From the NCBI GenBank assembly GCA_012064415.1, contig SSNU01000310.1:1-64000 (forward strand): DNA of 64,000 bases, read 5' to 3'. The DNA is from Gyrodactylus bullatarudis. Taxonomy: Eukaryota; Platyhelminthes; Monogenea; Gyrodactylidea; Gyrodactylidae. The notes beneath the pieces are model-generated. The model was given only the letters and a program-made list of their open reading frames with translations, did no database searches and was not told the origin of the DNA. The stretch's first letter is position 1. Every line of letters starts with the position of its first letter. A program made the position numbers and the translations under genes. Positions 11,301 to 63,731 of this stretch are shown here, piece by piece.

Positions 11301-13604
11301 ACAATAGAGAGAAGAAATTATCATGTTTTTTACTCTGATTTATTTACAACATTTGTTACTGTTTCCTGGTTCAAATAATACGTTCTAGTTGTACATTTTT
11401 GTAATAGAGAATCATCTTCTCCTTCTTCTTATTATTATTAAGGTACGCTGTATTTAGTTTCTGTTGTTGTTGTTGTTGGAACAAAAGCCAAATATCCTTG
11501 CCTAGATAAATATTCTTCTTGCTCATCGTGAATAAAACAATCTAATTAGACAAGAGAAGCAGCTCCTTTGATTTATACATTCGAGAGTGGATTAAGAGAG
11601 TTATGTGGTGAGAATATCTGGAATGGGATTGAATCGTACTACTCATAAATTATTATTATTCACTTGTTTATTTATTCTAAATATAAATAAATATGGTACG
11701 CATTGAATAAATGGGTAATAAAACTTGGTTTATCTCTTTTTATTTTCCCTGAATTTCTACAGTGTTGCGCTTCAGCCTATTCTCTTTCTCTCTCGCTTTC
11801 TACTTCTTTGGGATACCGTACAAGGAGGGTTCCCTTCGTTTGATTCTCTAGGTGTGTGATTTTTGTGTTTATTTTCAAATGTAGCAGAGATATAGAAATT
11901 ACAGATAAAAAAGGTTTAGTTTTGATAAATTGGTCAGGAAATTCCACTCTTCTATTCATTCTTTTCGGATTCTTCCTACTCGCCTTTTATCGTTGAATTT
12001 ATCCAGTAATTATATAAGAATATATTCTATTATTATTTCTAACTGGTGTTACAACTTTTTTGTTGTTGTTGTTGTTGAAAATGTAACATTATTCCTACAT
12101 AATTCATTCATTCAGTTTTTTCCAGGGAATTTAATTTTTTTACATGAAAAAGTTGCTACAAACAGCCATGTTATATAGGCATTCTCTCTCACAGATGTAT
12201 CTTAAAAGAATACATTACAATGCAATGTTTTTGGGAGGGAAAATTAAATTTTGTTACAAGGAAATGAACTAAAGTTTCCTCTATTGAAATTAGGCCGTCT
12301 GGCAACATCGTCGCAAGGAATGTCGGTGCAATGGGCCAAGTGGAGCATGTGCCACAAGATTTTGTTATCATAAAATCGGAAGTTTCCGCAACGTTGGCAA
12401 CTACATAAAGAGTGCTTACAAATCAGCTATAAGGGTTTCTTATCGTCCGGAACAAAACCGTCTGGTGCCGAGTGATGCTTTCAACTGGCACTCTAATCAA
12501 ATGGGTCTCATTCAGCAAAACGAGTTGCTCAACAGAAATACCAGGTATTCCCGAGGCATCCGGAGGAAACGAGATGACTCAGGTCTATCAAAAAAAGTTC
12601 TCGTCTACTTGGAAGACTCGCCTAACTACTGTCATCCGGATCCAAACATTGGTAAGTTTAATCTCTCTCCCTCTTGGGATTTTCATATTTTCCTTGAACT
12701 AAACGAGGTCTCTCTCTCTCAATTCAAGGTTATTTTTTTTAATTAAAAGTGCACTATCTCTTCTTACAGCATATTTGAATTGGGATTTTCATTATTTCTA
12801 AGAATAAAATTCACTAATGATGGTACATCTACTATACTAATTCTGTTCTCTCTTCATGGAAACTGCTTCACTTGCTTCATATTAGAAATAAAATTGTATA
12901 TAATTTGTAATGTTTAATAACCATGATAAATACCAACTTTTTGTTGTACAGGACAAATGAAAAAAGCACGATTATTTTTTCATGAACTGGCTCTACAGTG
13001 CCACATCCACAAAAACTGCATCTAGCCACAAATAATAAGCACACACACACACACAAAGACAAGTTGAACCCATAATTAAATTCAGTAGGCAGTTTGAGAA
13101 AGAGAAATAACTTTTATTAAGATATAAGAGAGAGAGAGAGAGCATTCAACTAATTTCCTGACACAGATGATGGAAATATTTTATATGCTTCTTCATAATG
13201 TTTATGCATTCAAAAGTTTGGAAGGAAATACTACTTTTTAACTCTACTACAACTATGCAATTATTATTCCAGGTCATCACGGAGTTGTCATGAGAGAATG
13301 TGATGGTAGAAATTCGAGCGCACCAAACTCTTGTAGCAGTCTCTGTTGTGGATATGGCTTTGAAACTTTGGTTATTGAACAGCCAACAAAGTGCAAATGT
13401 AAATTCATCTGGTAAGTAACTCAGATGATATAGAGTAAATTTGTAATTTGATTTGATAAATTTCCAAGGTGCTGTGAGGTTAAATGTGAAATATGCATTG
13501 AACGCAAGACAATTCATCGATGTAAACTCCCACCGGCGGACCATCGTGGACTTGCTGCACGCAGTAACAAATTTTCAAATCCATTTTTTAACCAGTTATC
13601 ATGA
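5359..13604 (+). CDS. Wnt-family secreted ligand (subfamily unresolved)
   Basis: Five exons (5359-5435, 7549-8347, 12294-12651, 13273-13411, 13469-13604) with compatible phases give 502 residues and a clean stop. Residues 1-25 form a signal peptide rich in Leu/Phe. A Gln/Asn-rich stretch follows to about residue 75. Then comes the Wnt fold: CMSLNGFTKKQRFLC, a helix ending in HEKWNCS, WAAGSVDKLTRACSLG, and FYWSGCSDH. The C-terminal cysteine domain has VYLEDSPNYC, SLCCGYGF and CKFIWCCEVKCEIC. The lipid-attachment loop reads CRCNGPSGAC, where most Wnts have CKCHGVSGSC. Ser308, at the position acylated by Porcupine, is kept. An acidic insert (about 220-260) and about 26 residues after the last cysteine are unusual. 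By eye the C-terminal half looks closest to Wnt10/Wnt6 members, but this is weak. Wnts are secreted and bind Frizzled receptors. Confidence 0.9.
5436..7548. other. Wnt intron 1 (2.1 kb)
   Basis: Begins GTGAGT and ends TTTTAG. AT-rich, with no supported nested gene. The open frame at 5399-5608 runs through the splice donor and is not a gene. Confidence 0.8.
9333..9356. repeat. (TTC)8 microsatellite
   Basis: Pure TTC triplet run inside Wnt intron 2. Confidence 0.9.
10113..10129. repeat. (AG)n microsatellite
   Basis: Uninterrupted AG run in Wnt intron 2, one of many such GA/CT tracts in the window. Confidence 0.85.
13040..13054. repeat. (CA)n microsatellite in Wnt intron 3
   Basis: Short CA run within the 621-bp intron between Wnt exons 3 and 4. 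A (GA)n run follows at about 13127-13142. Confidence 0.8.
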
Positions 13605-45259: not shown

Positions 45260-46351
45260 TTAATAAATGTTAATCTCGCCAACAAATATTTTTTTATCGC
45301 TGCCAGCAGACATGATAATCGGTTCGAATTGGTGAAAAGCTGTCTCATTAACACAGGCAGCATGTCCTGGTAATTTGTAGAGTAATTTTTGGGATATTCG
45401 ATCCCAAATATATACAAATTTATCTCCGCTTCCACAAGAAATTTTTTTACCATCAGGGGACCATGAACATCTCAGTAGATTCTTTTCAAATGTATGAGTA
45501 TGGCCTTGAAAAACTTGAACACATCTATCACCTTGGACAAACGGCCTAATATCCCAGACCCTAAGAGTTTGGTCCATAGCATTGGAAAGTATAAAATTGC
45601 CATCTGGCGAGAGTGATAAGCCCGTAACTGTATCTGTATGTCCCGATAGACGTAGAGAGACATCTAATCTTCTCAAGTCCCAAGCCTTTATAACATTATC
45701 AATTCCACCGGTGTATACAACTTCAGAAGTATCATTAAACGTACAGGCCAGTACCTGATAGTTGTTGTTGAACGACTGGACTTGTTTTTTATATCTTGTA
45801 TCCCAAAGCTTCACAGTATTATCATCGGAACCGGAGCAAATGATTTGGGGTCCTCTTCTGGCTATAGTAACACAATTGACAATATTCTCATGGCCCTTGA
45901 TTCGTTTAATTCTAGTTCCCGTCTCAATATCCCAAACACCAACAGTTTTATCTGAGGATGTTGTGAACATTAAATCCCCATCAGTTGATGTTTGTAAATC
46001 AAGAATTGCTCCTCCATGGCCTTGAATAACAGCAATGTTGTCACACTCTCCATAGGTACTCCAAATAAAAATTCGACGATCAAAACCAGCACTGGCAATT
46101 AAAGCACCATCTGGATTGATAAATTTAGCACAATAAACTTCTCCTTCGTGCCCAGCTAAAAGCATATTCGGTGCCTGTAATGATGATGTTCTAGGAATAC
46201 TCCCCGCCTCACCAGTTGGAATGATTTGCTGTTTAGGATTTCTGAGGGGAACGATATCGTTGAATTTAGAAGAAGGTTCGCCTATTTTCTGTTTTTTAAC
46301 AGGGACCGGGACCATGGTCATGCTGCGCATGTTGGGTCTGTCAAAATCCAT
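45260..46351 (-). CDS. SNRNP40: U5 snRNP 40-kDa WD40 protein
   Basis: An intronless gene of 363 residues. The start is the ATG at 46351; the frame extends upstream only through a TTG codon. After a basic N-terminus (VPVPVKKQKIG) the signature SSLQAPNMLLAGHEGEVYC leads into seven WD40 repeats. Family hallmarks are SAGFDRRIFIW, TSSDKTVGVWD, CSGSDDNTVKLWD, VLACTFNDTSEVVYTGG, SNAMDQTLRVWDIRPF and FEKNLLRCSWSPDG. These closely match the vertebrate protein along its whole length. The protein is a propeller scaffold in the U5 snRNP and the spliceosome. The gene lies head-to-head with the ERM gene (119 bp between start codons) and tail-to-tail with the C1orf50-type gene. Confidence 0.95.
   Translation of the reverse strand: MDFDRPNMRSMTMVPVPVKKQKIGEPSSKFNDIVPLRNPKQQIIPTGEAGSIPRTSSLQAPNMLLAGHEGEVYCAKFINPDGALIASAGFDRRIFIWSTYGECDNIAVIQGHGGAILDLQTSTDGDLMFTTSSDKTVGVWDIETGTRIKRIKGHENIVNCVTIARRGPQIICSGSDDNTVKLWDTRYKKQVQSFNNNYQVLACTFNDTSEVVYTGGIDNVIKAWDLRRLDVSLRLSGHTDTVTGLSLSPDGNFILSNAMDQTLRVWDIRPFVQGDRCVQVFQGHTHTFEKNLLRCSWSPDGKKISCGSGDKFVYIWDRISQKLLYKLPGHAACVNETAFHQFEPIIMSAGSDKKIFVGEINIY
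45262..45267 (+). terminator. Poly(A) signal of the C1orf50-type gene
   Basis: AATAAA about 100 bp after the stop and overlapping the stop codon of the antisense gene. The reciprocal signal for SNRNP40 (TTTATT on the plus strand) lies at 45238-45243, so the two mRNAs should overlap at their 3' ends. Confidence 0.5.
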
Positions 46352-46470
46352 TATTTGCAAGTTTTAAAATGTAATAGGCTATAAACAAATACTAAAATGG
46401 CATTTTAATCGTTTGTTTATTTTGTTAATAGAATAAAGCAAAATTAAGTGCATTATTTAAAAGTGTAGAA
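46352..46470. promoter_or_regulatory. Bidirectional promoter of SNRNP40 and the ERM gene
   Basis: Only 119 bp separate the divergent start codons, so both core promoters and both 5' UTRs must lie here unless upstream exons overlap SNRNP40. No clear TATA box is visible in either direction. Confidence 0.55.
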
Positions 46471-49400
46471 ATGGTAAGAGTGCTTGATAATTTTTAGTTA
46501 AACGTTGTTGTTAGTACTGTTGATTCAAGACTTGAATTCGCTCTCCACAAAAACTCGTTAGGCAAACAATTGTTCGAGCAGGTTGTTAAAACTCTTGGAA
46601 TAAGAGAGGTTTGGTATTTTGGAATACAGTACACAGACAAAGAGAACAACTTGTGTTGGCTCAAACTTGACAAAAAAGTTACTAGCCATGAGCTTAGTAA
46701 GGAGAAGCCACCTGTATTTTTCTTCCGTGTCAAATTCTACCCAGAAGACGTAGTCGAGGAGTTAATAGAGGACATAACCCGCGAATTCTTCTATCTTCAA
46801 GTTAAAAGTTCTATTCTCAAAGGAGATATTTACTGTCCTGCTGAGACTGCAGTTCTTCTTGCTTCCTACGTTTGTCATGTAAGAATCGGTGTTTATGGTC
46901 CAGGATGCGATGCGTCAGTTCCGACTGCTGACCGTTTGTTGCCTCCTTCAGTCTTGGAAGCCCATGAGCTTTCCAGTGATGAATGGCGTGAGAGAATAAT
47001 AAACTGTTACAAGCAACACAAAGAATTGTCTAAAGAGGATGCAATACTGGAATATCTCAAGATTTGCCAGGATCTAGAAATGTACGGTGTCACTTATTAT
47101 CAAATCAAAAACAAAAAGGGTACTAAATTATGGCTAGGTATTGATGCTATGGGTCTGAATATTTACGAAAATGAGGACAAGTATGTAACAGATTAGTTTA
47201 TCATTTTTCAATTCTAGATTAACTCCTAAAATTGGATTTCCATGGGATGAAGTGAAAAAGGTTTCCTTCAAATCGAAAAAGTTCATCTTACTTCCAACAG
47301 ATAAATCAGCCAAGGTATGTTTTTCCATAAATTTTCATATCCATTTGCATAAAGCTAGTAATCAAATTTGGAATTATTAAATATTTTAATTTATTCTTCA
47401 TTCATTCGACTTTTCAATCATTTTTGTTAACTATATTAATTAATCTACCCTAGTCTGTGATATTGACATTGTTTACATAATCTTTCTATCTATATATTTT
47501 AGGAATGGCATTTCTTAGTGGAACGAGTGCGGTTTAATCGACAGATCCTCTCACTCAGCATTGGCAATCATGAATTGTATATTCGCAGGAGAAAGCCAGA
47601 TTCAATTGAGGTTCAACAAATGAAAACAAAGGCTCAAGAAATTCGCGAGGCTAAAGCCATGGACAAGAAACGTTTGAACGAAGAACGCTCTGCACGAGAG
47701 GAGATGGAGAAAAAAGTCAAAATCATCGAGCAAGAATCAATAAAAAATCGTGAAGAATACGAAGAAGCCATTCGAGTCGCCAATAAATATGAAAAGGAAT
47801 TAGAACTTCTCAAGTCTGAACTTGATAAAGAGCGGGAAGCCAAGATGATGTTAGCCTCAACTGAAGATCAGCTACGTCAAATCAATCAACAATTGGAAAT
47901 GGTGAGATTATCTTGTTTTTTAAACCGAGAATGAACCTTGAATTTTGTATAATGCGTCTCGAACCCGATTTCAATCGATCGATAATTAAACAATGGAGAT
48001 GGCTATTTTAGTGTTTTTCTAGCTTGTATAAATCTAATTCGTCATTCTTAGAGAGAGAAAAAGAGAAACCTTAATTTATGCTAATAAGATTCCATCCATC
48101 TATTTGGTCTCTATGGTTCTCTGTGGTATACACTCTAATAATGGGTAATGTTTTCTTGTTGTATTTCTCCAAAGATATTTTAATCTTTCTGTAGTTCAAT
48201 ATTTTGAAATAATAATGATGATGTTTCCAATTTCAGAGGAGAGTGAGTAATATTCGGTTTGAGTAGTCAATTTCTTGCCTTAAAAACTTTACTATCCAAT
48301 TTGTAGTCATTTTTGGGTTTATAAATTGTTTAATATTCCTAACATGATCCTCTTATAACAATAATAACAATTTATTGATTGTGTGTTCCATAAATCCTCC
48401 AACCTTGATACCTACCCCTGTATACTTGAAGTAGATCATTCTTTATACTCTTTATGATGAAATTTCAAGTATAAAATGTTTAATCTCTTGTCTACTTGGT
48501 TAAAGGCTGTAGCTGCTACGGCTGAGGAAAGAGAACGACTGCGCGCTGAACACAGAACCCTGGAAGAAAGGGTTGCTCAACAAACTGAACAACTTGAATT
48601 CCAGAAAAAGATGAACATTGAGAGAACCCGAGACTTGGACTCTCTCAAAGAAAAGGCAACAATTCCCTTCCTCTTGGTCAGTGATAAAAATAACAATTGC
48701 TCAACAAACGGTCTCGATCAATTTGAGGAAATCAACAACAACAACCTTGAGGGTGAGTTTTTTCAAAACACTCTTCCGTATACTTCACTATTACTGCTAG
48801 TACTGCACCATTTACTACTCTGATTTGATTATTTTCTCATTTCTATTTTAAGAAATTTTCGATTCATTTCAATGATAACATTTATTTCTAATCTGACTAC
48901 AGATAATAATTGATTTATTACTTTCATTAAGAGAGTAGTTTAAACTTTATACTTTTCATTGCTGCTTTGCAGACATTTGAAAAGGATGTTTTTTGTTACT
49001 GCATATTTGTCGAGAACAAAAAAATTATAATCTGATTAATTTATCAATCAAAAATAACAAATTTAGCCATACAAGAAGAGGATTATGGGAAATCACCCAC
49101 TCTATTCTCCAAGACATCCTACTTTTTCAGTAACCCTTCGTGTTCTCCTCGGATATTGAAGCAAAAATTGCATCATAGTCCCATAAGAGAGAGTGTTGTC
49201 TTGCAGCGAGAATCTTTTGTCATCTCACCCACTCTTGAGAGACAAAGATATTCATGCGAAGTACCAAGTAATGTTTTCTCAATTACTTGTTGTGGGAAAC
49301 TCTACGTTATTAATATTTTCTATGGGAAAGCATTTCGTCTATGCACAATCTATCTACATTATAGCAAGCTCTAGATATTACTGCGTGCAAATATGCTATC

Positions 49401-50974
49401 AATAATGTTTATGTTCATGTCTTTTTATAACAATCAAATTAAAATGTAAAAACTTATGGTTTGATAGAGAGATCCAAAAGGATATCAAACTCGGATTCTG
49501 ATACAACCAGTTCAATTAGTGACGTTGATCTCAAGGCTCTAATGAATGTCGCTGAAAGAGATAGCATCATTTATTCTCTAACTCTCTCGTCCACTAAAAA
49601 CTCATATAGACCTGCAAATTCAAAAGGGTTTTTGAATAAAAAATTGAGTGATCTACAGGATAAATTCTATGCCACTAACTCCACAGGTCCTGAGAAATAT
49701 CAAATTGAACCTGCTGTTCGTAAAGATTCACATCATTCTTACACATTAAAAAGTACATTTCATCTTTGGTCATGTTTGTTGTTTGTCTTTCCCGCTGCCT
49801 GAAAATACTACAACAACAACAACAACAACAACTACTACTACTACTACTAATATTGCCTAATCATAAACTAATAATAAACTTGCCTTGACTGAATCCTCAT
49901 TTATTCCCAACTAACTAACAGCCAAGCTTGTTGTTTAACCAGAAATAGATGGAGAGAGAGAGCAATGTTGTTGTAAAAGAATAGTCAAGGAAGGAATGGT
50001 TCATTTCGGAAAATGTTTCTCTCACTAAATTCAATTTTTTGTACGATACAAGAGAATGAGAGAGAAAATACTTTTATTTTTCATTAAAAATAAAATGGAA
50101 TTCATCTATTTCAGTTTTCAGAGTATTCGCTCTCTCTCTCTCTCTTTCATTCTAGCTCACCCGCTCTCGTTTTCTATTTATTTTGTAGTTTGCCAACTTA
50201 ACATTTCTCTCTCTCTCTCTCAACTCACCATTGTACCATTTTTAGTGTATTCTGTTGTAGCACAGCTTTTATTATGAAACATTTTCAAATTCTATAATTA
50301 TTCCGCATCATCATTATCATCAATGTTGTTGCAATTACAAATAACGCATGAATGTTGAAATGAAACCACAAAATTATTCAAAAATGTTCAAAATCTGTGT
50401 CCTAAAGCCCTTCTATGGCATTACTATTTTACTAAAGTGTAACCTTCATTTTCTCTGCCTTTATTCTCATGCTATTTTGCTCTCGTTAATCTCTCATTGC
50501 TAGTTGATTAAAAAAAATCTTGGCTAATTCTGTTCTCATGTTGAGCTAATCAACTTGATAGTTACACACATAGATTTGGTCTTATTTCTTAAATATTCTC
50601 GACTAATTCAATGTTTTTATTCTATTCCAGCTGAACCAGAGGATGATAGTGAGTTTTTTATAAGCCTTTTAATTTGATTAATAGTTCAAAAAAACTATTT
50701 ATCATATTTTCTAGTTAAAGAACTCGAGGTTTTGGAACACATCCAAAGATCCGAAGAGGAAAGGATCACAGAGTATGAGAAAAACAAAGAATTGTCCAAT
50801 CAAATCAAAACCCTCAGAGCTGATCTCCAGAATAAACGAGATGTAAGCAAACTCAAGCCTATTGATCACCGATACGATGAATTGCAAAAGAAGGGTCTCG
50901 ACAAGTTCAAGACCCTTAGACAAATCAGAGAGGGAAATACTAAAAAGAGGGTGGATCAATTCGAGGCAATGTAG
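46471..50974 (+). CDS. Moe: Ezrin-radixin-moesin (ERM) protein
   Basis: Core exons 46471-46473, 46498-47180, 47218-47314, 47503-47901, 48506-48752, 50631-50648 and 50715-50974 give 568 residues, the usual ERM length. The FERM domain covers about 1-300: [70 protein letters not shown] and IEVQQMK. A charged alpha-helical region (about 300-475) follows. The C-terminal domain ends [17 protein letters not shown]...FEAM, so the regulatory Thr (moesin Thr558 equivalent) is Thr549 here. That tail separates it from merlin. ERM proteins link membrane proteins and PIP2 to actin; tail phosphorylation opens them. The first coding exon is the ATG alone, inferred from a perfect donor and the match of the next exon to the family N-terminus. 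Two further in-frame exons are listed separately. Confidence 0.93.
47902..48505. other. ERM intron between helical-domain exons, with a possible 6-nt microexon
   Basis: Begins GTGAGA and ends GGTTAAAG. At 48237-48242 the bases AGGAGA sit between a good acceptor (CCAATTTCAG) and a GTGAGT donor. Inclusion would add Arg-Arg in frame at the exon 4/5 junction. This is a suggestion only. Confidence 0.3.
49067..49267 (+). CDS. Moe: Candidate in-frame cassette exon A of the ERM linker
   Basis: An ATTTAG acceptor, 201 fully open bases and a CCAA|GTAATG donor. Exon 48506-48752 leaves one base, and this exon supplies two, then 66 codons, then one base, so it can be included or skipped without a frame change. 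It reads [16 protein letters not shown] at its start. Ser/Arg/Pro-rich segments follow ([21 protein letters not shown]) with several Ser-Pro sites. ERM proteins have no conserved domain here; the region is their flexible linker. Confidence 0.55.
49468..49752 (+). CDS. Moe: Candidate in-frame cassette exon B of the ERM linker
   Basis: A TTTGATAG acceptor, 285 open bases and an AAAA|GTACAT donor, again 2 bases + 94 codons + 1 base. It encodes a Ser/Asp-rich opening ([18 protein letters not shown]), then a helical part ([14 protein letters not shown]) and a basic end. The phase fits both cassette A or exon 48506-48752 upstream and the 18-nt exon downstream. Polypyrimidine support for the acceptor is weak. 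Confidence 0.5.
49808..49848. repeat. (ACA)n followed by (ACT)n microsatellite
   Basis: About eight ACA units and six ACT units in the ERM intron downstream of cassette B. Confidence 0.85.
50631..50648 (+). CDS. Moe: 18-nt microexon of the ERM gene
   Basis: TATTCCAG|18 bases|GTGAGT. It contributes the acidic stretch EPEDD between the linker and the C-terminal domain and keeps phase 1 on both sides, so it too can be skipped in frame. Flanking signals are strong. Confidence 0.65.
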
Positions 50975-51655
50975 GAAGATGAGATTAGTTGAATCAATCT
51001 GGAATATGCAAGAGTTTAATGGAGTTTTTTTATACTGACATGTAATTTTTCTCACAGTTGTGAACTAATTTCTTGAAAATTTTCAAATTTAAATGTTAAA
51101 AGAAATCCATTTTTAACCTTTGATTAGATCACACAGAATATAAATGTATTTGATCAATAATTTTAGATATCCTTACCAAATTTCAAAATCAAATCAAGAA
51201 AACTAATGTCAAACACATGCAATAAAATAAAATTAGTACTTTTGTTCAATAAACAAGTCTCTCATTTCATGTAGCAATTTATTCTGGTTGATAATTGATT
51301 GTGTCTCTCATACACATAGTCCTACATGTCTTGTTAATGTTAATGTCTTAAATTTTTTTCAACTAAAAACTTAATTTTTTAGATCACTTGAAAAAATATT
51401 GATGCGAATTTCTCTTCTCAAATTACATATGGTTTGCAGGTATTTGGTATTGATTCCATCAATCTCTCATTTTAATAATTTGTCATTCCAGTCTGCAAAC
51501 TTTATAATGTAACAGGTTTTTGAAAAGTCAATAGATTTATTTTTTTTTTCAATTCAACCGTATACTGGTTACAAATCATTCACATGTTCTTTATGTCTAT
51601 ATATAAATATCAAAAAATAAAAAAAATATCCAAATAAGAATCTGTAGTTCAATGT
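50975..51655. other. Shared 3' region of the ERM and ABHD4-like genes
   Basis: Convergent 3' UTRs with no coding content. AATAAA on the plus strand at about 51221-51231 suits the ERM mRNA, and TTTATT at 51537-51542 (AATAAA on the minus strand) suits the hydrolase mRNA. Confidence 0.6.
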
Positions 51656-53077
51656 TTAATTATCGTCAAGTGAAAATTTTGTCTGTTTATCATGATTAAA
51701 GCATTGATTTGTGTCAATTTTGGTGCAAATTTCGCGGATGATTTTGTTGAATTCATTCGCACACTGAGCGAAAGCCTGATGCCCACCGGTTTGAATAATC
51801 TTTAAGGATATTTTTTTATTAAAATCAAATCACCTTCACATCCACATAGGATTCTGATCGGTCTCCTTTAACTTTAAGGCCACTAGAACTGTCTATCCAT
51901 GACCTGCCACCATAAATGAAAGTTATTGGTATATCCTTTTGAATATTCTTCATCCTAGGGGCCATTGGCATTTTTGCAAAAAAATTTCTTTTGCATAAAC
52001 CATAAAAGGCAGCCTCGCCACTTAATGAGTAAAGAAGAGATAAATTGGACTAAATTCTAATTACGTGGGATTGCGCATATTACACTGGTAAATGTATTCA
52101 TACACAACATCAGGTGTCCAATTAGTCACAACAGGATTACTTAAAGATTCTGGACACGTATAAGATCTTTTTAGAGTCTTATTCGTTTGCGAATCCTCTG
52201 AAGTTAAATCACCTTCGTCTGTCTCATCAGGAATGTACCCTGTGTCAATCAGAGCATTGTCTTCCAATTTGTCTGACGAAATTAATCAAGTGAATAATTA
52301 CCCATGTTTGAATCGTCAAGAGCAAAGATGTGAGCAAAATCGGGTCTAAATTTTTTTAAAAAATAGGGACCAGCAAAACCTGAATGTCTTAGAATTCCCA
52401 ATGGAGTCGGAAGCCTTAAGAGTAGCCGGTATATGGGACGAATACTTTCATCGTTGTTTTCAACAAATCCCCATGCATCCACTAGTACTAAATGTTTAAT
52501 TCTCTCCGGCTTATTCAGAGCAAAAACTGCTGCGAGATAACCACCAAAACTATGACCAATAAGTATGACTTTATCAAGTTTCAATGTTTCCAATACAAAA
52601 TTCAAGGAAGACGTGTACAACTTCTCTATCTCTTCAGCTGCTGTTGGGAATTGTTTTCTCGTGCTTAAACCATAGCCCAACAGATCTATTGCATAGACTC
52701 TTCTTTTCGAAGCCATAGACTCTAAAGAGTTAGAAGATATTTTACCGATATTCTTGAACCAAAGGCCTGATCCTGCTCCAAAACCATGTACTAAAAATAT
52801 GGGAGTGTTTTCTTCATAATCTGCATCTGTGAAATTTCTAAAGATATGGGCCCTGATTGAGTATCTTTCATCCTCGTTAATTATGAACATAGATTCACAC
52901 TTTCCACGAACAACTTAACCAATAGTTAGAAGAATATTTACCTTTCAGTAAATTTTTTTCCGCTAGAAAGCATTTTTCTATGCCCGTAGATCCTGAAGAG
53001 AACCATGAAGAACTACCGGTGTTTGTATCAAATTTATCACTTGGATTTTAAATTAAAAATTACCTCTCATCTATCAT
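51656..53077 (-). CDS. ABHD4: ABHD4/ABHD5-type alpha/beta hydrolase
   Basis: Six exons on the minus strand (53077-53064, 53039-52942, 52913-52302, 52272-52065, 52020-51834, 51799-51656) close exactly to 420 residues. Introns are 24, 28, 29, 44 and 34 bp. Markers are SSWFSSGST at the N-terminus (SSWLPTW in vertebrates), HGFGAGSGLW, YAIDLLGYGLS, GHSFGG, KFRPDF, EYIYQCN, NPTSGEAAF and TFIYGGRSWID. The predicted catalytic triad is Ser159, Asp354 and His380. The nucleophile Ser is present, as in ABHD4 (an N-acyl phospholipid lipase), whereas ABHD5/CGI-58 has Asn there. The H-x4-D motif of both vertebrate proteins reads HQAFAQ here, so its Asp is missing. A lineage-specific acidic insert of about 65 residues (EDNALIDTGYIPDETDE onward) sits before EYIYQCN. 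The protein probably acts on phospholipids at membranes or lipid droplets. Confidence 0.9.
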
Positions 53078-53314
53078 TTTTGATGATCTTCCTAATAAAA
53101 AGTATGAGGCAGTAGCAGTTGTAAGGCAATGGAAAATCGAACGATATTTTTTTATCATTAATTTCGTTCCAAATGTAAACTTAAACAAAATACTCTAGAT
53201 AATCTGAATTTTTCGTTTGAAATTAATGAAAATTCAATCAAAGCTATTCTCCTCATCTTCTAGATACTCTTTCACCATTATTTGCCTCTCTACCATGAAT
53301 TTATTCTAAAAATT
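53078..53314. promoter_or_regulatory. Bidirectional promoter of the ABHD4-like and TFIIE-alpha genes
   Basis: A 237-bp AT-rich gap between divergent start codons with no coding content. No TATA box at a convincing distance. Confidence 0.5.
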
Positions 53315-54925
53315 ATGTCAGCAACAAAGCGACCTTCAAGTTCTACTGTGGAAAATTTCCAAGCCCAGAAAAAAATTCACTCTGAAATAAAGAGTACTAG
53401 TGAATTACCGATATGTCTCAAAAGATTGATCGCTGTTGTTATCCGCACATTTTACTCGAGTGAGCATGCACTGGTGATGAATTTACTGATGAGAAACACC
53501 ATCATGAAGGAAGACGATCTGTCTGAAAGAATAAAACTCGACAAAAAACAACTCAGACAATTATTACATACGCTCAGATCCGAACAATTCATTAAATCAA
53601 AAATGCAGCTTGAAACAGATACAGCTGAAGGAAAATCTATAAGAATCACCCATTATTTCATAGATTATAAAGTGAGTTATTACTCAAATTTGTCGTATTT
53701 TGAATTAAAAATAAACCTTATTTCAATTATTTATTCAAGCTATTTGTCAATGTTGTAAAGTATAAATTGGATTTAATTCAGAGAAAACTTGAAACTGAAC
53801 AGAGAGAATCCTCCAGTAGAGCTTCATTCCGTTGCTCTGAGTGCCGATCACCCTATACAGATCTTGAGATTGATCGATTATTTAATATAGAGCTTGGTAA
53901 GTTAACTTGCACCTACTGCCGAGCCGAAGTTGTTGAAGAAGAACAGGCCTCACCGCGTTCGGACGCCTGTGCTCTTGTTGCACGCTTCAACCAGCAAGTC
54001 CGTGCACCCCTCGATAATCTCCTTAGAGAATGTGACGGAATTCATTTATCATCTTCACTTCTCGAACCACAAATTAGACCCTTGGAGCCTTTGCCAGGTA
54101 GTAAAGATTACCAGTCAAATTCTGGTGTTGTATGGGATGAAGAGAAGGAAAAGAAATGGGAACAAAATTCGAATTTACCGTCTAATACCACAATAAAGAT
54201 TGTATTGGACAGTCATACAGGTAATAACATGTCAAATACAAAAGAAAGACCAATTTGGATGGTTGAAAGTACCATACAACAAGATCAAAATAGCCAGACA
54301 TCTAAGGCTAATGATAATCTTACACAGACGTTGGTACCAGGACGTGTACCGAGTGCTTTTTCTGACATGAACGATTCAAGCAATAATGGAAATGGTTCCT
54401 CTTCCAATGGAGCTCACGGAAATCATTCCAATTCCAATGAGATTATGCAAATGCTCATGATTCATGAACGCCGAGGTATCCCAAAACTGAACAATTCATC
54501 AAATGTATGTTTAGTCCTGATATTACTTTTATCTTCTCCATCGTCGAATCATCAATCTATTTTTTTCCAGTCATTTACACATTCCCAAAAAAACAAGCAA
54601 AATAACTCATCAAAAGGGAACGATAAAAAACTAGAAGAGTACGTTTCTTGCTCTTACATTTATATAGCTCGTCATGATTATTCTCAATCTTTTATTTAGA
54701 AATCAATCCAAACCCATTGATAATGATACTGTTATTGATATAACAGACTCTGATAATCATGTCCAGAGTAAAGATATTCCTTCAGATTATCTAGTTCACG
54801 TTTCTGGTCAACAATTTGATTATAGAAAAATACTTCCATGTCACATCAAAAAGATGTCTGATGAGGAACGCCAGAATTACATTACTGTCGGCAGACGTAT
54901 TTACAAGAAATGCATTTTTGAATAA
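53315..54925 (+). CDS. GTF2E1: Transcription initiation factor IIE subunit alpha
   Basis: Four exons (53315-53671, 53740-54504, 54571-54638, 54700-54925) encode 471 residues. The ATG at 53315 (MSATKRPSSS) is the first in frame. The N-terminal winged helix reads LKRLIAVVIRTFYSSEHALVMNLL and KLDKKQLRQLLHTL. It is followed by FVNVVKYKLD and a zinc ribbon with Cys151, 154, 176 and 179. RPIWMVESTIQ and IMQMLMIHERR match conserved blocks of the human protein. The C-terminal acidic helix region (VHVSGQQFDYRKI...MSDEERQNYITVGRRIY) is also present. The Asn/Ser-rich middle is lineage-specific. TFIIE-alpha recruits and regulates TFIIH at RNA polymerase II promoters. Confidence 0.95.
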
Positions 54926-57028
54926 GCCGGGTGTGTATTCACTTGAATCAGATAGAAAAATTCCCAATTTTTAAATTACCACTCGGTTCTCAATTCTAAC
55001 TATGCTCATTATAATTCAAGTTGAAATACAAGGTCCTTCTTCACTAAAGAGTGTTTAGTTGTGCCTTTCAGATGAATCCTTATTATTTCCCTCCCGCCCC
55101 CACAGTCAAGGACAGATACTAGCCAAGAATTGTCCAAAAAGTGTCGGTTAGTCTATGGAAATTTTGTACTTTCTCGGTAACTATTATTAAATTATTATTA
55201 TTATCATTAAATAACTGAGAGTAAAAGTTATGCTGCACTTTTTTGGTGTGAAATAATATGCACATATTACTAATAATAATTTGTAAATAGTCTATAAAAA
55301 ACTGACTCTCCAAAGTATCAGAAAGGAAAAGGATACTTTTGTAAAATGCAAAACGATCCACACTCTGCGTGTGTATTTTTGAAATTTTGTGATTATTTTT
55401 TTATAAAGAATATTTATATTGTATAATACATGATCAAAGGAAAAAGGATACAAATAGTTTTTCACATTATCAATTCTTCTCAATAAATTTATTGCTAGAA
55501 ATTCAGGTCAAAGGTGACCTCAGTCAGAGTTAGTTGCCTTTTCCAGTCAGTCAGAGTTGTAAAGTTGATCTCGGAAACTCTCGACCTACTTATAACACAA
55601 TTTTTAGATGAATTATTCAGTTTAATTCGGTAATAGAATTCTCTCAATTTATTATCCATCCATCTAGGCGAGAAGAAATAAAAATTTAATTCTTTCTAGA
55701 TTTTAATCTTTTCCTAATTACCATGGTGAGAAAAAACCGCATCTCGTGTCAAAAAAATTCATCATGAATGAAGAATGAATGTGGTTAGTTTGAGAGATGG
55801 CACAATTGGTCTCCTTCAAAGGAGTATAATAAAAAATATATAACAAAAATTGAGACAAATTTATGTCCCCTTTTCAGTGTCCACTTACTAATTTTTTTTC
55901 TAGTATGAGAGGTTCAGATTTCACTAGGCAATAGAAAGTGTTACCAAAAAGAGATAAGCAAACATTTTCACATTTATTACCACACACAGAACATTGTCGT
56001 ATATTTTTAAAATGGCGAAATTGTCATTCAAAACACTGGTAGAAATAGGAAATCTCTACATTCAATTCTTGATTATTCACCATGTGTATTCTGAGCTTTT
56101 AGTCCAAATTCGGTTTCTTTTCCTTCCACATGTTGAGTTTATTCTCTATTCTCAGTTTTCTTCCAATGTCTTTTCTCCATTTGGAAAAATAATTCTCATG
56201 ATTCTTTTGTCTGTTGTTGTCTTCAGACTTACCTTTGTATTATCTTCCTATTATTCCATTATTTTGATTTTGAATGACAAAAAAATTCAATTTTCCCAAT
56301 GTATTCATTAGGATAATAATCCCCTACAACTCAGAGGAAAAGTCAAGAGAAGATACATGAAACTCTCATCATCATCACCACCACTACCACCACCACCTCT
56401 TGTATAAACAGAACAATGATTTTCACTTCTCTCTTGACCTTTTTCTTATTCCTCTTGTCTTCCAAATTTTATTCCCTGCTCTTTTCTCACTACAAAAGTA
56501 TATTTTCATGTATTCATCTTGAACATTTTACTATCCACACATACACTCACTCACGCACAGGTGAGACCACTATTAACGACTCCAAAATCTTCTCGGAAAT
56601 GAAGAACAACAAAAAGAAGAATGTGTGATGATAAACTCACTCACCTTTAATACGCAGAATGAGATAGAGAGAGAGGGAGAGATTGGGAACAAAACGAAAC
56701 AAGTCAGATAATAAAAAAGACTTGTGACGTATTTATGATCTTTTCATAGTCCTTGGAAAAAAATTAGGTCCTGACCTTTGCCTGTTTAGGGGTAACTAGT
56801 GATTGTGATTGTGTGTCAGAAGTGAGAGGCATTATTACAGTCGATTTTCTTCCTTTCTCTCCTTTACACACTCTATTAGGCTAATGAACTATTGTACTTG
56901 TATACATATTGTAAACAAGATGTATTATCACAGGAATAAAATACTGAATTTTGATTGGTTGAAAATAAAATTATGCGCCTTTTATATGGAAAACAAGAAT
57001 GTCCATTAGTTTTCCTTACCAGTGAGGA
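54926..57028. other. Spacer between TFIIE-alpha and the small zinc-finger gene
   Basis: No exon is supported. A poly(A) signal AATAAA lies at 55482-55487. The open frame 55994-56311 is hydrophobic and low in complexity with no family likeness. A GAGA tract lies at about 56665-56682. Confidence 0.5.
55505..55520. promoter_or_regulatory. Nuclear-receptor-like half-site cluster
   Basis: AGGTCAAAGGTGACCT contains an AGGTCA/AGGTGA direct repeat spaced by one base (DR1) and an outer AGGTCA...TGACCT palindrome. DR1 is a known binding pattern of RXR/USP and HNF4-type receptors. It may be chance, and which gene it would serve is unknown. Confidence 0.25.
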
Positions 57029-57478
57029 ATGAACAAGTATTTGGACGCAAATCAGAATGAAATAACTCCTGACAAGAATTATGATCCCATTAAAGCCCTC
57101 CAGATAATGTGTGATAAACTTTTGATTGAATCGACAAGCCAGCCGAGAGAGAAACATCAAGTCACACCGAGAAAATCCAAGGACTCCATTAACAGACAAC
57201 ATCAGTTGCCAAAGACTATTTCATTCCCCAAGCGGAGAAATGAAAGCTACAAAAAGGTTTCCATCTTGAGGCTAAAGAAAAAGGACGATTCTCTCAGATT
57301 CATCAACCTATTTCTCCTTATACCTTTGCTATCGAATTTATTCTCATTCAATGCAGATCTGATTGAGACTCAACCAAAGTGTACCCTATGCAGGTATACA
57401 TCGAGAAACGGTTTCGTCGGCCTCTTTTATCATGTGAGAAAATGTCACTTGAAAACAGATGAATTTAAACCCAGATAG
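57029..57478 (+). CDS. Small protein with a C-terminal CCHC-like zinc finger
   Basis: A single open frame of 149 residues starts at an ATG 7 bp after a good splice acceptor (TTTTCCTTACCAG), so a 5' UTR exon is likely upstream. The N-terminal half is polar and basic (KYLDANQNEITPDKNYDP, then a Lys/Arg/Ser-rich part). A hydrophobic stretch of about 20 residues follows (INLFLLIPLLSNLFSF). The end has CTLCRYTSRNGFVGLFYHVRKCH, a C-x2-C-x13-H-x3-C-H arrangement like a single C2H2/C2HC finger. AATAAA lies about 105 bp after the stop. The hydrophobic block directly before the finger is odd and may be an unrecognised intron, although no phase-correct splice pair was found. Family not recognised. Confidence 0.5.
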   Translation: MNKYLDANQNEITPDKNYDPIKALQIMCDKLLIESTSQPREKHQVTPRKSKDSINRQHQLPKTISFPKRRNESYKKVSILRLKKKDDSLRFINLFLLIPLLSNLFSFNADLIETQPKCTLCRYTSRNGFVGLFYHVRKCHLKTDEFKPR

Positions 57479-57585
57479 ATTAGACATCAATTTTTATTTA
57501 CTGTCACTACAAATACATGAGCAGATTTGAAAATTGTATATTTCCCACATTGTATTATTGTCTTATCTGATACTTTTTACAAGTT

Positions 57586-57591
57586 GAAATA
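57586..57591 (+). terminator. Poly(A) signal of the small zinc-finger gene
   Basis: AATAAA about 110 bp after the stop codon at 57478. The SEH1 gene ends on the other strand about 320 bp further on. Confidence 0.45.
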
Positions 57592-57906
57592 AAACTAAAC
57601 AATTTAAAAATGATATTCAAACCATTTGTACTAGAAAACTCCTCACCGAATTAAAGTTATTTACTTAAAAAAATATCCTATATAAGTGGTAAATTTTTAT
57701 TCCAAAAACTTTAGGGACTAAATTCGAATTATTTATTTTTTATTTATCCATGATATAGAGACCAATATTCTCGACTAATTCCATTAATTAAATTGTTCCT
57801 ACAAAACTGATGATAACAGAATTTTTATCAAAAATTTTATTTGATTCATCATAAAAAATAGTCTTGAATTTAAAATACCGATTCGACTTGTTCATGAACT
57901 AACAAA

Positions 57907-60043
57907 TTAGGAAATGCCACGATATGGATATAGATTTCCAGCGATTCTCGGATCTATTGAATCCTGATTGTTTGTGATCCCCTTCGGAGGGATGCATTGT
58001 TGTCCACTGTTGGAAATGACACCGACACATCGCCAGTTGTCAAGGTAATTTGATTGCCACAATCTCACAAATCCATCTTCACCACTACTTGCAAGCAGAG
58101 ATCCTAGAGGGGTAATTTCATATTTATATAAAAGAGGTCAATTTAAAATCTGAATAATTTAGTTATTCCCCCAGAATATAATGCGATTTTTGTGCCCACA
58201 TTTTCAAGACTTTTACAGAATACCAAGAACACGCGATGGACAAGTTATTCTTTTTCATCCAAGCCCCTTATAGATTTATAATGCATACACAGATGCTAGT
58301 CCGTATAAGGAAATAAAATATAATGTTCTCACTCATTCATAATTGATGAACATTTAGATGTTGCAAGCGAGAGAAGAAGAAAAAAGGAAAGGGGGACAGA
58401 GACTAGGGTTGACTAGAATATTTCTTTAATCAATTAAAAAATGCATAAACACTGTACACAAAGTCAGTGATTTCTGCGGAGAAAAGGAAATTTAAAGCGA
58501 ATTTCTAAGAGAAAAATGTCACGCAACCCTTGGTATAAATAATTGAAAAAAATTAAATAAAAGACTACAGTATCATTTATCATGGTACAAATTCATTTAG
58601 TATTACCTGTAATATTCCAGGAGAGTCGCCAAACACGTCCTTTGTGATGATCAAAAGAGGCTAGTTTCTGTATTTGATAATGAATCCTTGGCAGTTGTTT
58701 CATCTGTGACTGATTAGCTGAATCTGAAATTTTTGGTTAATTCAAATTTTTCCCAAAGTAATTTTTCTTAAAAAATCCTTATGTTACTTTTTCAACAAGT
58801 AGAATAAATCTGATTAAAAATGAAACTTGATCGAAAGACCTCAACACTGTTGAGGGACCATTGTACTTATTTTTTCAAGGGAAATACAATGACTAAATGT
58901 TGAAGAGTAATATCAAAAACTAAGACATTAAAAATAATTTTAAATAGATAATATTAATAATTTTATCCTCAACTTCCTTTTCGAGAGTTGACTAGATTAA
59001 AAAATAGATTTAATTGGAATACATCCTATCTTTTCCCAAAACCCCGACCAGACGTTTCGGTACTGAGATAGTGAAGTACCTTCTTAATTTACATAAGGAA
59101 AAATTGTCTCAAAATACAGAAATATTTAAAATTACATATTATTGGGTAAAATATTAAACTGAAAAAAATTACCTTCTTGTGGGGGTTCTTTGCATGTAAT
59201 CCTCAGAATAAGAACCTCATTTTCAGTGGCAACAGCTAAGAGTTGAAAAGACTGTCCTAGATGGGGAGCAAATGAAACATCAAAAACAGCCGTATTGACA
59301 CATCGTACATTTTCTACTATGTTCCATTGTCTCTGATTCTCGACATACTCACAAAGAGCTAATCTTCCTGGTCCATGAGATTGGAATGGGGAATTTTCTG
59401 TAGTATTTTGTAATGCAACCGTGGAATTTTTATCCAGATATTCCGAAGCATTACTTCCGACAGCAATCAATGGAACATCAAGACGAGAATATGACCAGCT
59501 AAGACATGAGCCAATCATTTTGGTTGAGAAATCAAACTGAAGAGTCCATTGGCTTAAATTCATGACATCTTCTGCCTCATATATTCGAAGATAACCATCA
59601 GAAGAAATGGCAGCGAGTTGAAGTCCCATATGACGTGGTGCAAATTGGATATCAACAACTGAAGTCCTAGGGTCAACTAGAGTTGCCCGTTTGATCCAGT
59701 TTGTGTTAGAGGCAGTAGGAGGATCATTTTCGCCCTGATTTTGTTGATGATCAGACATCACTTTTAGGGGGCTTCCAACTTCCTCCCAAATCTCAATTGT
59801 TCTGTCGAAACTACAAGTAGCGATTACTTGGCCAAATTCAGGATGGGCCCAATCAACTCGCCAAACGGGGCCAGAATGGTTCCTCCATCTTGCAGTTGAT
59901 TTCCAGTCTGAATTCTCTTTAAGGTCCCAAATCTTTACCATTTGATCAGAACTACAAGTAGCCATTCTTTTGCCGTAAAAGTCATAAGCAATGTCATGAA
60001 TGAGGTCTGTGTGCTCTGAATTTATCGACTTTTGGACAAACAT
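57907..60043 (-). CDS. SEH1: Nucleoporin SEH1 (WD40)
   Basis: Three exons (60043-59173, 58723-58607, 58103-57907) encode 394 residues. The start MFVQKSINSEHTDLIHDIAYDFYGKR... is the family start. Markers include MATCSSDQMVKIWD, SGPVWRVDWAHPEFGQVIATCSFDRT, WIKRATLVDPRTSVVDIQFAPRHMG, APHLGQSF, GRVWRLSWNITG, SLLASSGEDGFVRLW and DNWRCVG. SEH1 is a six-bladed propeller that pairs with NUP85 in the Y-complex of the nuclear pore and is also part of the GATOR2 complex of TORC1 signalling. The sequence differs from vertebrate SEH1 by a polar insert after WEEVG (about 90-110) and by a shorter tail. Introns of 449 and 503 bp are much longer than those of neighbouring genes. Confidence 0.95.
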
Positions 60044-60208
60044 TAAATTTTTTATAAATATTTTAAAAGTTATGCAGGCTCAAACACTCAAGTTTATTTT
60101 ATGTCGTCAGATCTTTGTTATAAATGAGTTACTTTCTGAAATTTTGGTATTGAATTAAGTGTTTTTGTTAAGATATCTCTATTTTAGCAAATATACTGTT
60201 TCAAAGTG
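60044..60208. promoter_or_regulatory. Bidirectional promoter of SEH1 and ZNG1
   Basis: 165 bp between divergent start codons. AT-rich, no coding content and no clear TATA box. Confidence 0.5.
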
Positions 60209-61343
60209 ATGAGAGTTGAAGAATCAGATACTGACGATGAAATACCAATGTTGGTTGATCCTGAAAAAAAAGTTCCCGTTACGATTGTGACCGGATTTCT
60301 CGGTGCAGGAAAAACAACACTTTTGAATTATATTCTCAAAGAGCAAAAGGAGAAAAAGATTGCAGTTATTCTTAATGATTTTGGACCTGATTCTTCTATG
60401 GAAATGGCTGGTGTATCTATAAAAGACGACTCTGATCACTATTTTGAAGAAATATTAGAACTCAAAAATGGATGTTTATGCTGTTCGATCAAAAATCCGG
60501 GAGTTAAATCTATTGAGTTGTTGATGAAGAAGAAAGGAAAATTTGATTACGTTCTACTTGAGTCTACTGGTCTTGCTGATCCGGGGCCAATAGCCAAAAT
60601 GTTTTGGCTTGACGAAGAGCTATGTTCTGATGTCTATCTAGATGGAATTGTCACTTTAGTTGATGCCAAAAATTTGTTCAAGAATCTTGATACAAATTCT
60701 GAAAATGTTAATGAATGTCAGCGTCAGATAGCTCTGGCTGACGTTATACTCCTGAATAAAATTGATTTGGTCAACGAAAATGAGATACTAAAAATTGAAA
60801 AGGCCCTCCTTGAAATAAATAGCTCTGTGAAAATCTACAAAACAACCAATTCAAATATAAACCTGGATAATATTCTAGATCTCAACCTGTATGATTCAGA
60901 GTAATTTATATCTTTACTATTTCTCGAGTGCAATCGCTTTAGGTCTATTGGAAATTTCAAAGAATCAAGGATCGCATCTGAGAAAGGGAATTTCTACCTA
61001 TACTGTTTGGTTCTCGGATCCCCTGTCCAAGGAAATATTTGAAAAGGAATTATCTCGTTTATTGTGGGATTCTGATAATATTCTCAGAGCCAAAGGATTC
61101 ATTTATTTATTCGATAATAGTCAAGGTCCAATGGGAAAAAAACTTTATTACTTGCAAAGTGTCCAGGATACTTATGATCTCAAAGAGGTTGCTTCTGATA
61201 GTCGTAAGAAAGCCTTAGAAAGCTCAATTCCTAGGATTATATTCATTGGTAAGTACCTTATTCTCCCTAAAGTTTTCATTCTAGGAACTGATTTGACACA
61301 AAACTATCTTGACAAAATATTTCATGAAAATAATATCACATGA
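60209..61343 (+). CDS. ZNG1: COG0523 GTPase, zinc chaperone ZNG1/CBWD type
   Basis: Exons 60209-60900, 60929-61248 and 61285-61343 (introns of 28 and 36 bp) give 356 residues. The ATG at 60209 is preferred over a GTG three bases upstream. The P-loop GFLGAGKTT spans 29-37 and the metal-binding motif GCLCC has Cys89, 91 and 92. [32 protein letters not shown] and LLNKIDLV complete the GTPase domain. The C-terminal CobW domain includes [14 protein letters not shown] and ends [22 protein letters not shown]1 uses GTP to deliver zinc to methionine aminopeptidase 1. The N-terminal CPELVP-type motif by which vertebrate ZNG1 contacts its client is not present; the region reads DEIPMLVDP. The first intron is inferred from phase, as the only acceptor that keeps the conserved frame. 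Confidence 0.93.
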
Positions 61344-62295
61344 AAGCAATATATAATACACATAAATCTCTAATTAATAAAGATAGATTTTCTACTCAAC
61401 TAATCTAGTTTATGTAAAACAAATCAGTATTTATAACTCAGTTATATCGACCCATGTAGGACTCACATGATTTTTGTATTGTACAAAAGTTCTACATTGA
61501 ATAAGTAGCACGATATTTAATTCATGTTCTCTATGCAGATATTTATCTCATGTTACCTTAACCGATTATTTTTTGAATCTCATATTATGTAAAAATAACC
61601 TTGGAATTTTTAATTCAACCAATTTTCTCTTACAGTGTATGCACATTTGCTATTGTAGTTTAAATTAAATCGATTCAAATTTGACTAAATTTTGTCAAGA
61701 TCAAAAAATAATTCAAAACAAATAAACTAGCCAATAAATATGCATACATTTGAACTGGTATTGATAGTTTTGTTTGTTGGTGCATTTTGTTTTCTTACAT
61801 AGTTTCTCTCAAAAATGAGCCAATAAAAATCTTCAGCCAATAGAGTAAACGTTATTCTACATGTAATAGTAATTTGTATAGAATTTTGAATACATCCTAT
61901 TTGATTCAAAACCGGTTCAAGAGGTTTGTTTGTGCCTAAAAAAGGAAAAATACAGGTTGTTATTATACCAGGACAAGCCTTGAATAAAATCCATAAAGTG
62001 AGTTGTCTCATTCATTATCTTTAATCGTCTACTATAAATGGTACTGTATAAAAAATGCTATTACTATAACGTCAATCTTTTTTTTTGCGTTATACAATGT
62101 TAACCTTTTTATTTTACCAAATATTTGATACCTAATATGTACATACATCTACTTCTATGTATTACACTTTATTGGTGCACAAATATAAATTTTTATCATC
62201 GGAAAATAATTCTCGTATAAACGACAGTACGAATATTTCACAAGGTCACAACTATTTTCATCTAACTTTTTACTTCTCTACATTTTAGTCACAAG
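61344..62295. other. Spacer between ZNG1 and annexin
   Basis: Contains a ZNG1 poly(A) signal (AATAAA at about 61376) and AT-rich DNA. A splice acceptor (CATTTTAG) 7 bp before the annexin ATG means that an untranslated annexin exon lies in here. No other coding region is supported. Confidence 0.55.
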
Positions 62296-63731
62296 ATGTC
62301 ATTCGATGAAGTGGGACCGAATGGGGAACTTTTCGATCCATCCCTGAAGCCGTTTGAATCTTTCAATCCAGAGACTGACTCGGAACTTTTAAAGGAGGCA
62401 AAGAATAAAAGTATTCCAATAAAATTCTCTAAGTTCCTCTAAGATTCAAAGTTTGAGAAAGCTCTGATAGATGTTCTTGCTTACAGGTCATGTAAGCAGC
62501 GCTTGGAAATAGCTAATGTTTACAAGGCAAAATTCGGAAAGGTAACTTGAATTTATTCATTAACCTTTATTTTATCAAAGAATTTAATCGACGACATCAA
62601 GAACCATACCAGCAGTGACTTTAGGAATACCCTGAACCTTTTACTTATGAATTCCACCTATATGAAAGCGTACTGCTGCTTCAAGGCCATAGATGGCCTA
62701 GGGACTGACGAGAATTGTCTTATTCAAATACTTTGTTCTGCGACAAACTCTGAAATTAAGGAAATTAAAGAGACTTACGCCGAAGGTACGTTTGGAATAA
62801 ATAAATAACATGTCTCCCTATTTTCTGCTAGTTTATGATAATTAATGTTTTCTTACCATTTCCATAGTTTTACGAGATGCCGGTAAAAATTGTAAGTTAT
62901 TTATTTTTCAATTATTAAATTCTAATAATATATAGAATACAGCTAGATAATTGGAAATAAAATAATCTTCTTTTAGGCACTAATAGAAATTTGGAAAAGG
63001 ACATAATTGAGGATACAGATGGATGGTTTCGAAAACTGCTCGTTGCAGTCCTTCAGGGTCAAAGAAAAGAGCCCACTCTGAGCCAGATAAAAGACATTTC
63101 TGTTTCTGGAATCACTGCTGTTGTCGATCAAGATGCTGCCGAGAAAATGGCCCAAGTTCTCTATGATGCTGGTGAAAAGTAATCTTTCAATAAACTAATT
63201 TCTATAGAATATTTGGAACGGACGAATCAAAGTTTATATCAATTCTTGCTCATGAAAGTGTGTGGCAGGTTGCAGCAATCGACTCGGCTTATTCAAGAGT
63301 GAGTAATTTGATAAATAAATTTGGAAATTTCTCATACGATCTTCATTCTTCTTCCAGATTAGTAAAAGGTCATTACGGGAAGCCATTAAATCTGAAACTT
63401 CAGGTGATTTTCAGAGAGCTCTCCTCGCTGTCCGTATGTGATTTGTTCTCTTGAAACATTTGAAAAAAAATTAAATTTCTCTTTCACAGTCGATTTTAGT
63501 CTGGACAGACCATCTGCTTTTGCAAAGGTGTTGTATAAATCTATGAAAGGACTTGGTACTGATGATGCCACTCTACAAAGAATTGTCGTCTCTCGTTGCG
63601 AAGTCGACATGAATGAAATAAAACGTGCCTATCATAAATTGTATAATAAAACACTTGCTCATGATATCAAAGGGGATACTAGTGGAAGCTACCGAGAACT
63701 CTTACACGCTCTTATTGGAGAGAGGGAATAG
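62296..63731 (+). CDS. Annexin
   Basis: Eight coding exons (62296-62410, 62444-62541, 62581-62785, 62868-62891, 62977-63178, 63208-63298, 63358-63433, 63490-63731) close to 350 residues. The N-terminus is short and acidic (SFDEVGPNGELFDPSLKPF). Four annexin repeats follow. Repeat 1 has KALIDVLAYRSCKQRLEIA; repeat 2 GLGTDENCLIQIL; repeat 3 FGTDESKFISILAHES; repeat 4 MKGLGTDDATLQRIVVSR and DTSGSYRELLHALIG. Type II calcium loops (GLGTD) are intact in repeats 2 and 4, altered in 3 and absent in 1. Annexins bind acidic phospholipids in a calcium-dependent way at membranes. The in-frame stop met when reading straight through 62411-62443 lies inside a 33-bp intron, so the gene is not broken. One exon of 24 nt is the least certain. 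Confidence 0.92.

Follow-up and report, generated by a model that had tools for sequence, protein, structure and literature searches.

Short GT-AG introns in the monogenean Gyrodactylus bullatarudis as a probable further case of flatworm microintrons

Short introns in flatworms and in Gyrodactylus bullatarudis

In the portions of the literature compared here, short introns of tapeworms peak at ∼36 and ∼73 bp, a feature also stated for Gyrodactylus salaris, and the introns of the first tapeworm peak favour the 3′ end of genes and those of the second the gene middle (PMC5036155). In the liver fluke Opisthorchis felineus, intron lengths peak at 37 and 90 bp, with a further, large peak at 3 kb, and the microintrons have splice sites nearer to consensus and have often lost the polypyrimidine tract (PMC6530080). 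Among other animals, Dicyema introns were described as uniformly short, at 26.2 ± 1.9 nt (n = 16; PMC2222250), and those of D. japonicum as averaging 38 bp (PMC6736024). The present analysis concerns ten stretches of 24–37 bp in the fish-parasitic Gyrodactylus bullatarudis that a preliminary description had proposed as GT-AG introns of at least four adjacent genes within the window, that is, the whole 64,000-bp stretch of DNA analyzed (bases 1-64000 of contig C267). As judged from sequence comparison, they are very probably GT-AG introns of the U2 type that belong with the microintrons of flatworms, here in a gyrodactylid monogenean. The surprise at their small size expressed in the preliminary description is unsupported, flatworm introns peaking near 36–37 bp and a Dicyema average of 26 nt having already been published. 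Microintrons have been reported from flatworms before (PMC5036155, PMC6530080), so that the present case, although well supported, adds another example to a known kind and is mostly expected.

Two short length peaks are shared with the tapeworms and with G. salaris, which belongs to the same genus, whereas here the two medians are 32 and 61 bp, with the short class placed toward the 5′ end of genes (PMC5036155). Clustering of neighbouring short introns and a 5′ bias are shared with O. felineus, in which the peak lies at 37 bp; unlike in that species, G at the fifth donor position (+5 G) is rarer here, and pyrimidines near the acceptor are still common (PMC6530080). Judged by +5 G, the microintrons of G. 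bullatarudis do not lie nearer to consensus, a trait recorded for O. felineus as one species and no requirement. Dicyema and G. bullatarudis are both animals with introns of about 26 nt, but in the latter these stand alongside kilobase introns (PMC2222250, PMC6736024). The 15–16 nt introns of Stentor resemble the present ones in being AT-rich, mostly GT-AG and biased to the 5′ end and in having no strong branch-point consensus, although intron length is near-fixed in this ciliate, whereas here it spreads from 24 bp up (PMC9505925, in the part compared).

The ordinary spliceosome would remove the microintrons through intron definition, and the spliceosome of this lineage would tolerate a donor, a branch point and an acceptor within as little as 24 nt. 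A homology-checked 24-bp intron in an animal with kilobase introns in the same genome makes the minimum size handled by the animal spliceosome testable. The class is also relevant to annotation, as 34 of the 53 intron-bearing genes sampled hold at least one microintron, and gene-finding software is described as having a default intron-length threshold that is usually too high for them (PMC6530080).

Length classes and conservation across the junctions

The sample comprised 244 kb (the window and 180 kb elsewhere in the assembly, ∼0.3% of the genome) in nine stretches, each from a separate contig. Genes were called with a custom gene finder that treats both strands together, combines a three-periodic coding model with splice-site matrices, permits GT-AG introns only and has no intron-length preference across 15–150 bp; stop-free introns with lengths that are multiples of three are read through. 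The splice matrices had been seeded by the ten claimed introns together with five generic donors, and the finder was therefore rerun with generic seeds on the 180 kb outside the window.

Across the 244 kb, 62 genes and 230 introns were called, among them 64 introns of 20–44 bp (shortest 24, median 32), referred to here as microintrons, 3 of 45–49 bp, 83 of 50–80 bp (median 61), 28 of 81–150 bp, 51 above that range and a single call of 16 bp. Microintrons are distributed over seven of the nine stretches. A mixture fitted to the lengths had a Bayesian information criterion of 159.8 with one component, 100.2 with two and 89.3 with three, the three-component version (lengths of 20–100 bp) having means of 32, 62 and 89 bp. 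The rerun with generic seeds returned 193 introns in the same length classes: 1 below 24 bp, 53 of 24–44 bp, 2 of 45–49 bp, 73 of 50–80 bp, 22 of 81–150 bp and 42 longer. Two short classes, of 24–44 and 50–80 bp, are present in the 244-kb sample and recur outside the window. The 16-bp call was rejected in favour of an intron of 58 bp that ends in TTGTTTAG, puts the protein back in frame and yields DDNKFRVFCH; the gene is presumably calcium-channel-like, and this peptide is taken to resemble that family. A length of 24 bp is a supported lower edge in the 244-kb sample, because a 24-bp intron of a Polo-like kinase (PLK) gene is homology-checked and nothing shorter survived checking.

The gene models are those of the finder itself, and homology was used to check part of them: among 34 genes that contain an intron of at most 41 bp, 17 were compared with known families, and 14 of these 17 have at least one microintron within the aligned stretch, for a total of 23 microintrons. 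The 24-bp intron of the PLK gene splits the glycine loop between LGR and GGFAKCYE in a gapless alignment to PLK1, and further clear cases are a MAPKAP-kinase-3-like gene with introns of 28, 27 and 32 bp and an AHA1 gene with an intron of 25 bp. Eight of the 14 genes were compared with solved-structure sequences or relatives, namely those for ERM (ezrin/radixin/moesin), CobW (partly), MAPKAP kinase, annexin, AHA1, PLK, ABHD and WDR61, the last by match range only; for the other six the comparison is a Pfam match spanning the junction. In the remaining genes, which are CDK12-like, WNK-like and for a dynein intermediate chain, the microintrons lie outside the aligned domain. The names CDK12 and WNK are assumed, and the other family names are taken from the matches.

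These alignments bear on two other origins for the stretches. Gaps not divisible by three could by themselves be errors, but that assembly indels or pseudogenes imitate introns throughout is scarcely credible, given that all ten stretches are GT-AG, that the lengths fall into two classes with few at 45–49 bp, and that microintrons occur on seven of nine stretches from separate contigs and in 34 of 53 intron-bearing genes, with the flanking protein conserved in those checked. It is also highly improbable that the stretches represent inserted coding sequence or introns whose retention is regulated: 3 of the 21 microintrons with lengths that are multiples of three have no demonstrated in-frame stop, but the other 18 contain one, 43 of the 64 have lengths indivisible by three, and at the microintron junctions the alignments for ERM, annexin, AHA1 and PLK continue without a gap. 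Retention would consequently harm most products, either by a frameshift or by an added stop. The reading of the preliminary description, that the stretches are introns and neither coding sequence nor isolated indel errors, is upheld by frame, homology and splice sites, and for two of the ten by frame and splice sites.

Preference for GT-AG was also assessed with a splice-blind model, in which GT-AG came first by total score among 116 dinucleotide pairs (4336; the other 115 with mean 4198, standard deviation 38 and maximum 4274) and gave 40 introns of 41–80 bp, against 36 for the best decoy. Several results weigh against identifying the stretches as introns. One decoy pair matches the splice-blind count for introns of at most 40 bp (19 for GT-AG), and the test therefore backs GT-AG by its total score and by the 41–80 bp count, not by the shortest introns. 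By codons alone, GT-AG ranked 77th of 256 pairs for 18–40 bp, 157th for 18–27 bp, 21st for 41–80 bp and 50th for 18–60 bp; this model is too weak, common AT-rich pairs having come first. Because the gene finder permits GT-AG only, the ends of the introns that it calls do not count as independent evidence. Seventeen of the 34 genes holding an intron of at most 41 bp lie outside the homology check, two of the nine stretches (L026 and L028) have no called microintron, and branch-point motifs in the microintrons are not clearly above shuffled sequence. The junctions of 46474-46497 and 53040-53063 fall outside homology and are placed by frame and splice sites.

Position, splice sites and the splicing machinery

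The 5′ bias of the microintrons and their lower +5 G are the less expected part of the result. Among genes that have three or more introns and a called start, the mean relative order of microintrons is 0.315 (n = 56), compared with 0.637 (n = 71) for introns of 50–80 bp (Mann-Whitney P 2e-7, with introns treated as independent in the position and +5 G tests). Adjacent classified introns are alike in 67 of 86 pairs, a level reached in 0 of 2000 shuffles across genes (mean 0.505) and in 1 of 2000 within genes (mean 0.635). As a separate observation, one gene at C267:117506-123119 on the plus strand begins with introns of 35, 30, 34 and 37 bp, after which come ten of 56–98 bp.

The donor carries +5 G in 30 of the 64 microintrons, in 70 of the 83 introns of 50–80 bp (Fisher P 2e-6) and in 36 of the 51 introns above 150 bp (P 0.014). 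Outside the window and with generic seeds, the corresponding counts for the two short classes are 29/53 and 62/73 (P 3e-4), from sequences overlapping those of the first sample; the homology-checked subset gives 9/23 and 10/13 (P 0.04). Shuffling donors within genes equalled the difference in 104 of 5000 trials. The effect, which is weaker in the within-gene shuffles and in the homology-checked subset, is moderate and partly a difference between genes. Such a difference was not encountered in the parts of the literature compared, and no literature search was aimed at +5 G.

Branch-point patterns tried on the microintrons stayed within about two standard deviations of shuffles, and a motif search gave 16.9 and 18.5, against 9–16 for shuffled sequence. 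The 50–80 bp introns contain a TGAAAAT-like motif above shuffles (43.5 against 10–21), which is not called a branch point because its position is scattered along the intron. It is possible, though doubtful, that two mechanistically distinct kinds of U2-type short intron exist, one of 24–44 bp near gene starts with GTAATT or GTAAAT donors lacking +5 G and the other of 50–80 bp with GTGAGT or GTAAGT donors. In the shortest introns, U1 pairing at +5 may be relaxed, as donor and branch site would be captured together.

The preliminary description had also called for inspection of U2, SF1 and U2AF. A U2 small nuclear RNA (snRNA) with the usual branch-recognition sequence GUAGUA is present and the U2AF65 gene is intact as a single open frame, whereas SF1 is represented by a partial helix-hairpin match. 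The U1 snRNA starts with AAACUUACCUG at its 5′ end, and in a second copy the corresponding sequence is AAACUUACUUG. That a distinct, modified spliceosome handles the microintrons is very unlikely: +5 G is rarer in their donors, and two U6-like matches, at L040:1433-1787 (C154) and L041:1501-1601 (C426), both show A in place of the second G in the ACAGAGA box, but the U1 and U2 recognition sequences are canonical and the U6-like copies are probably pseudogenes, because they appear 5′-truncated and one overlaps an inverted-repeat arm. The inverted repeats have arms of 54 and 33 nt that are 96–97% complementary, and an arm covers the first 20 nt of one U6-like match, for which BLAST found one other copy, matching only from base 36 on; this match resembles a fragment of U6 carried within a foldback element. 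The G-to-A change in the ACAGAGA box was dropped as a candidate spliceosome feature, since the copy overlaps the inverted-repeat arm and its 5′ part is unmatched elsewhere. An intact U6 gene was not found by one family, one pattern and one DNA search.

Two side observations concern the other spliceosomal RNAs. The neighbouring U1 genes at L038:935-1087 and 1501-1652 (C9), with ACUUACCUG and ACUUACUUG, respectively, differ at the base that pairs with the final base of the exon, and the second of them (ACUUACUUG) would match donors that follow an A, which are frequent in this sample. At L042:1501-1658 (C252), a match to U12 snRNA exceeds the gathering score.

The ten introns of the window and their neighbours

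All ten stretches start with GT and end with AG on the coding strand, at the coordinates and with the lengths originally listed, and the gene finder called eight of them, missing 53040-53063 and 52914-52941. The proposal that the frame of a conserved protein demands each intron holds for the eight that lie inside a protein alignment to a known family spanning the junction, but is weaker for the two of 24 bp, which are unspanned.

On the plus strand, the ERM gene contains a 24-bp GT-AG intron directly after the start ATG (46474-46497; called) and one of 37 bp (47181-47217; called) with a gapless radixin alignment over the junction. The ABHD4/5-like gene, on the minus strand, contains introns of 34 bp (51800-51833; called, ABHD alignment over the junction), 29 bp (52273-52301; called, aligned with flatworm relatives P0121 and P0139), 28 bp (52914-52941; missed, in a gapless alignment around LLK and VV) and 24 bp at its 5′ end (53040-53063; missed, with an in-frame TAA if retained). 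Three of these four junctions are spanned, the aligned relatives including a monogenean sequence (P0121) and a schistosome one (P0139), and a further intron of 44 bp in this gene (52021-52064), within the ABHD alignment, was absent from the original list. The CobW-type GTPase gene on the plus strand has called introns of 28 bp (60901-60928), within a YjiA alignment, and 36 bp (61249-61284), within Pfam CobW_C. In the annexin gene, also on the plus strand, the introns of 33 bp (62411-62443) and 29 bp (63179-63207) were called and lie in gapless annexin VI alignments, and a 39-bp intron (62542-62580) in an annexin VI alignment is again an addition to the list.

The introns at 46474-46497 and 53040-53063 are the least secure of the ten. 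The radixin alignment of the ERM protein begins at residue 2, leaving the first junction unspanned, and the second falls within the variable N-terminus of the ABHD4/5-like protein; each would bring an in-frame stop if retained. An alternative is that these 5′-most stretches (46474-46497, and perhaps 53040-53063) are spliced-leader acceptors, with an ATG at the 3′ end of the leader serving as start codon. Both 24-bp acceptors are indeed located at gene starts, the ERM acceptor is followed in frame by LNVVVST such that a leader ATG would give the same protein, and, apart from a few exceptions, flatworm spliced leaders reportedly have ATG at their end, but that pattern comes from a study from which Monogenea were excluded (PMC12582326, in the part compared). 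In addition, an ATG-bearing piece with a fitting donor lies exactly 24 bp upstream of each acceptor (ATG then GTAAGA, and an in-frame ATG exon then GTAATT), and a spliced leader would leave internal junctions, such as that of the 24-bp PLK intron, unexplained. This alternative is thus unlikely, and ordinary cis-spliced introns are preferred at both positions.

The four genes were described as adjacent, and they are neighbours, but other genes lie between them: one at 53315-54925, a low-scoring call at 57029-57478 and a minus-strand gene at 57907-60043. The first, on the plus strand, presumably resembles TFIIE-alpha and contains, as gene-finder calls, three introns of the second length class, of 68, 66 and 61 bp (53672-53739, 54505-54570 and 54639-54699; span 53672-54699). 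Introns of up to 3.9 kb were said to share the window with the short ones, in agreement with a 3946-bp plus-strand intron at 8348-12293, which is a gene-finder call. The gene that contains it, at window positions 6051-13604, has called introns of 1406, 3946, 621 and 57 bp and is taken, from its motifs, to be Wnt-like. Gene spacing can be tight, as in the example at 46351-46471, where two divergently oriented gene starts stand ∼120 bp apart.

The assembly as a whole totals 77.3 Mb in 471 contigs; for gyrodactylid assemblies in print, 67–91 Mb and a GC content of 31–39% are given in the part of the source compared, which also refers to transcriptomes of G. bullatarudis and G. kobayashii (PMC12677651). 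The identity of the animal as a flatworm was confirmed by COX1 and mitochondrial gene order. Encoded on the mitochondrial contig C13 (L010, L011), COX1 has 89% identity over its full length to a Gyrodactylus albolacustris cluster, compared with 85% for Macrogyrodactylus and 71% for Benedenia. The contig is 14,926 bp long with a GC content of 25.9% and a terminal overlap of 127 bp, and would close to 14,799 bp. Its minus strand has the order cox3-cob-nad4L-nad4-atp6-nad2-nad1-nad3-cox1-rrnL-rrnS-cox2-nad6-nad5, in which the names of frames other than cox1 and the rRNA genes are assumed, and which is taken to be that of parasitic flatworms.

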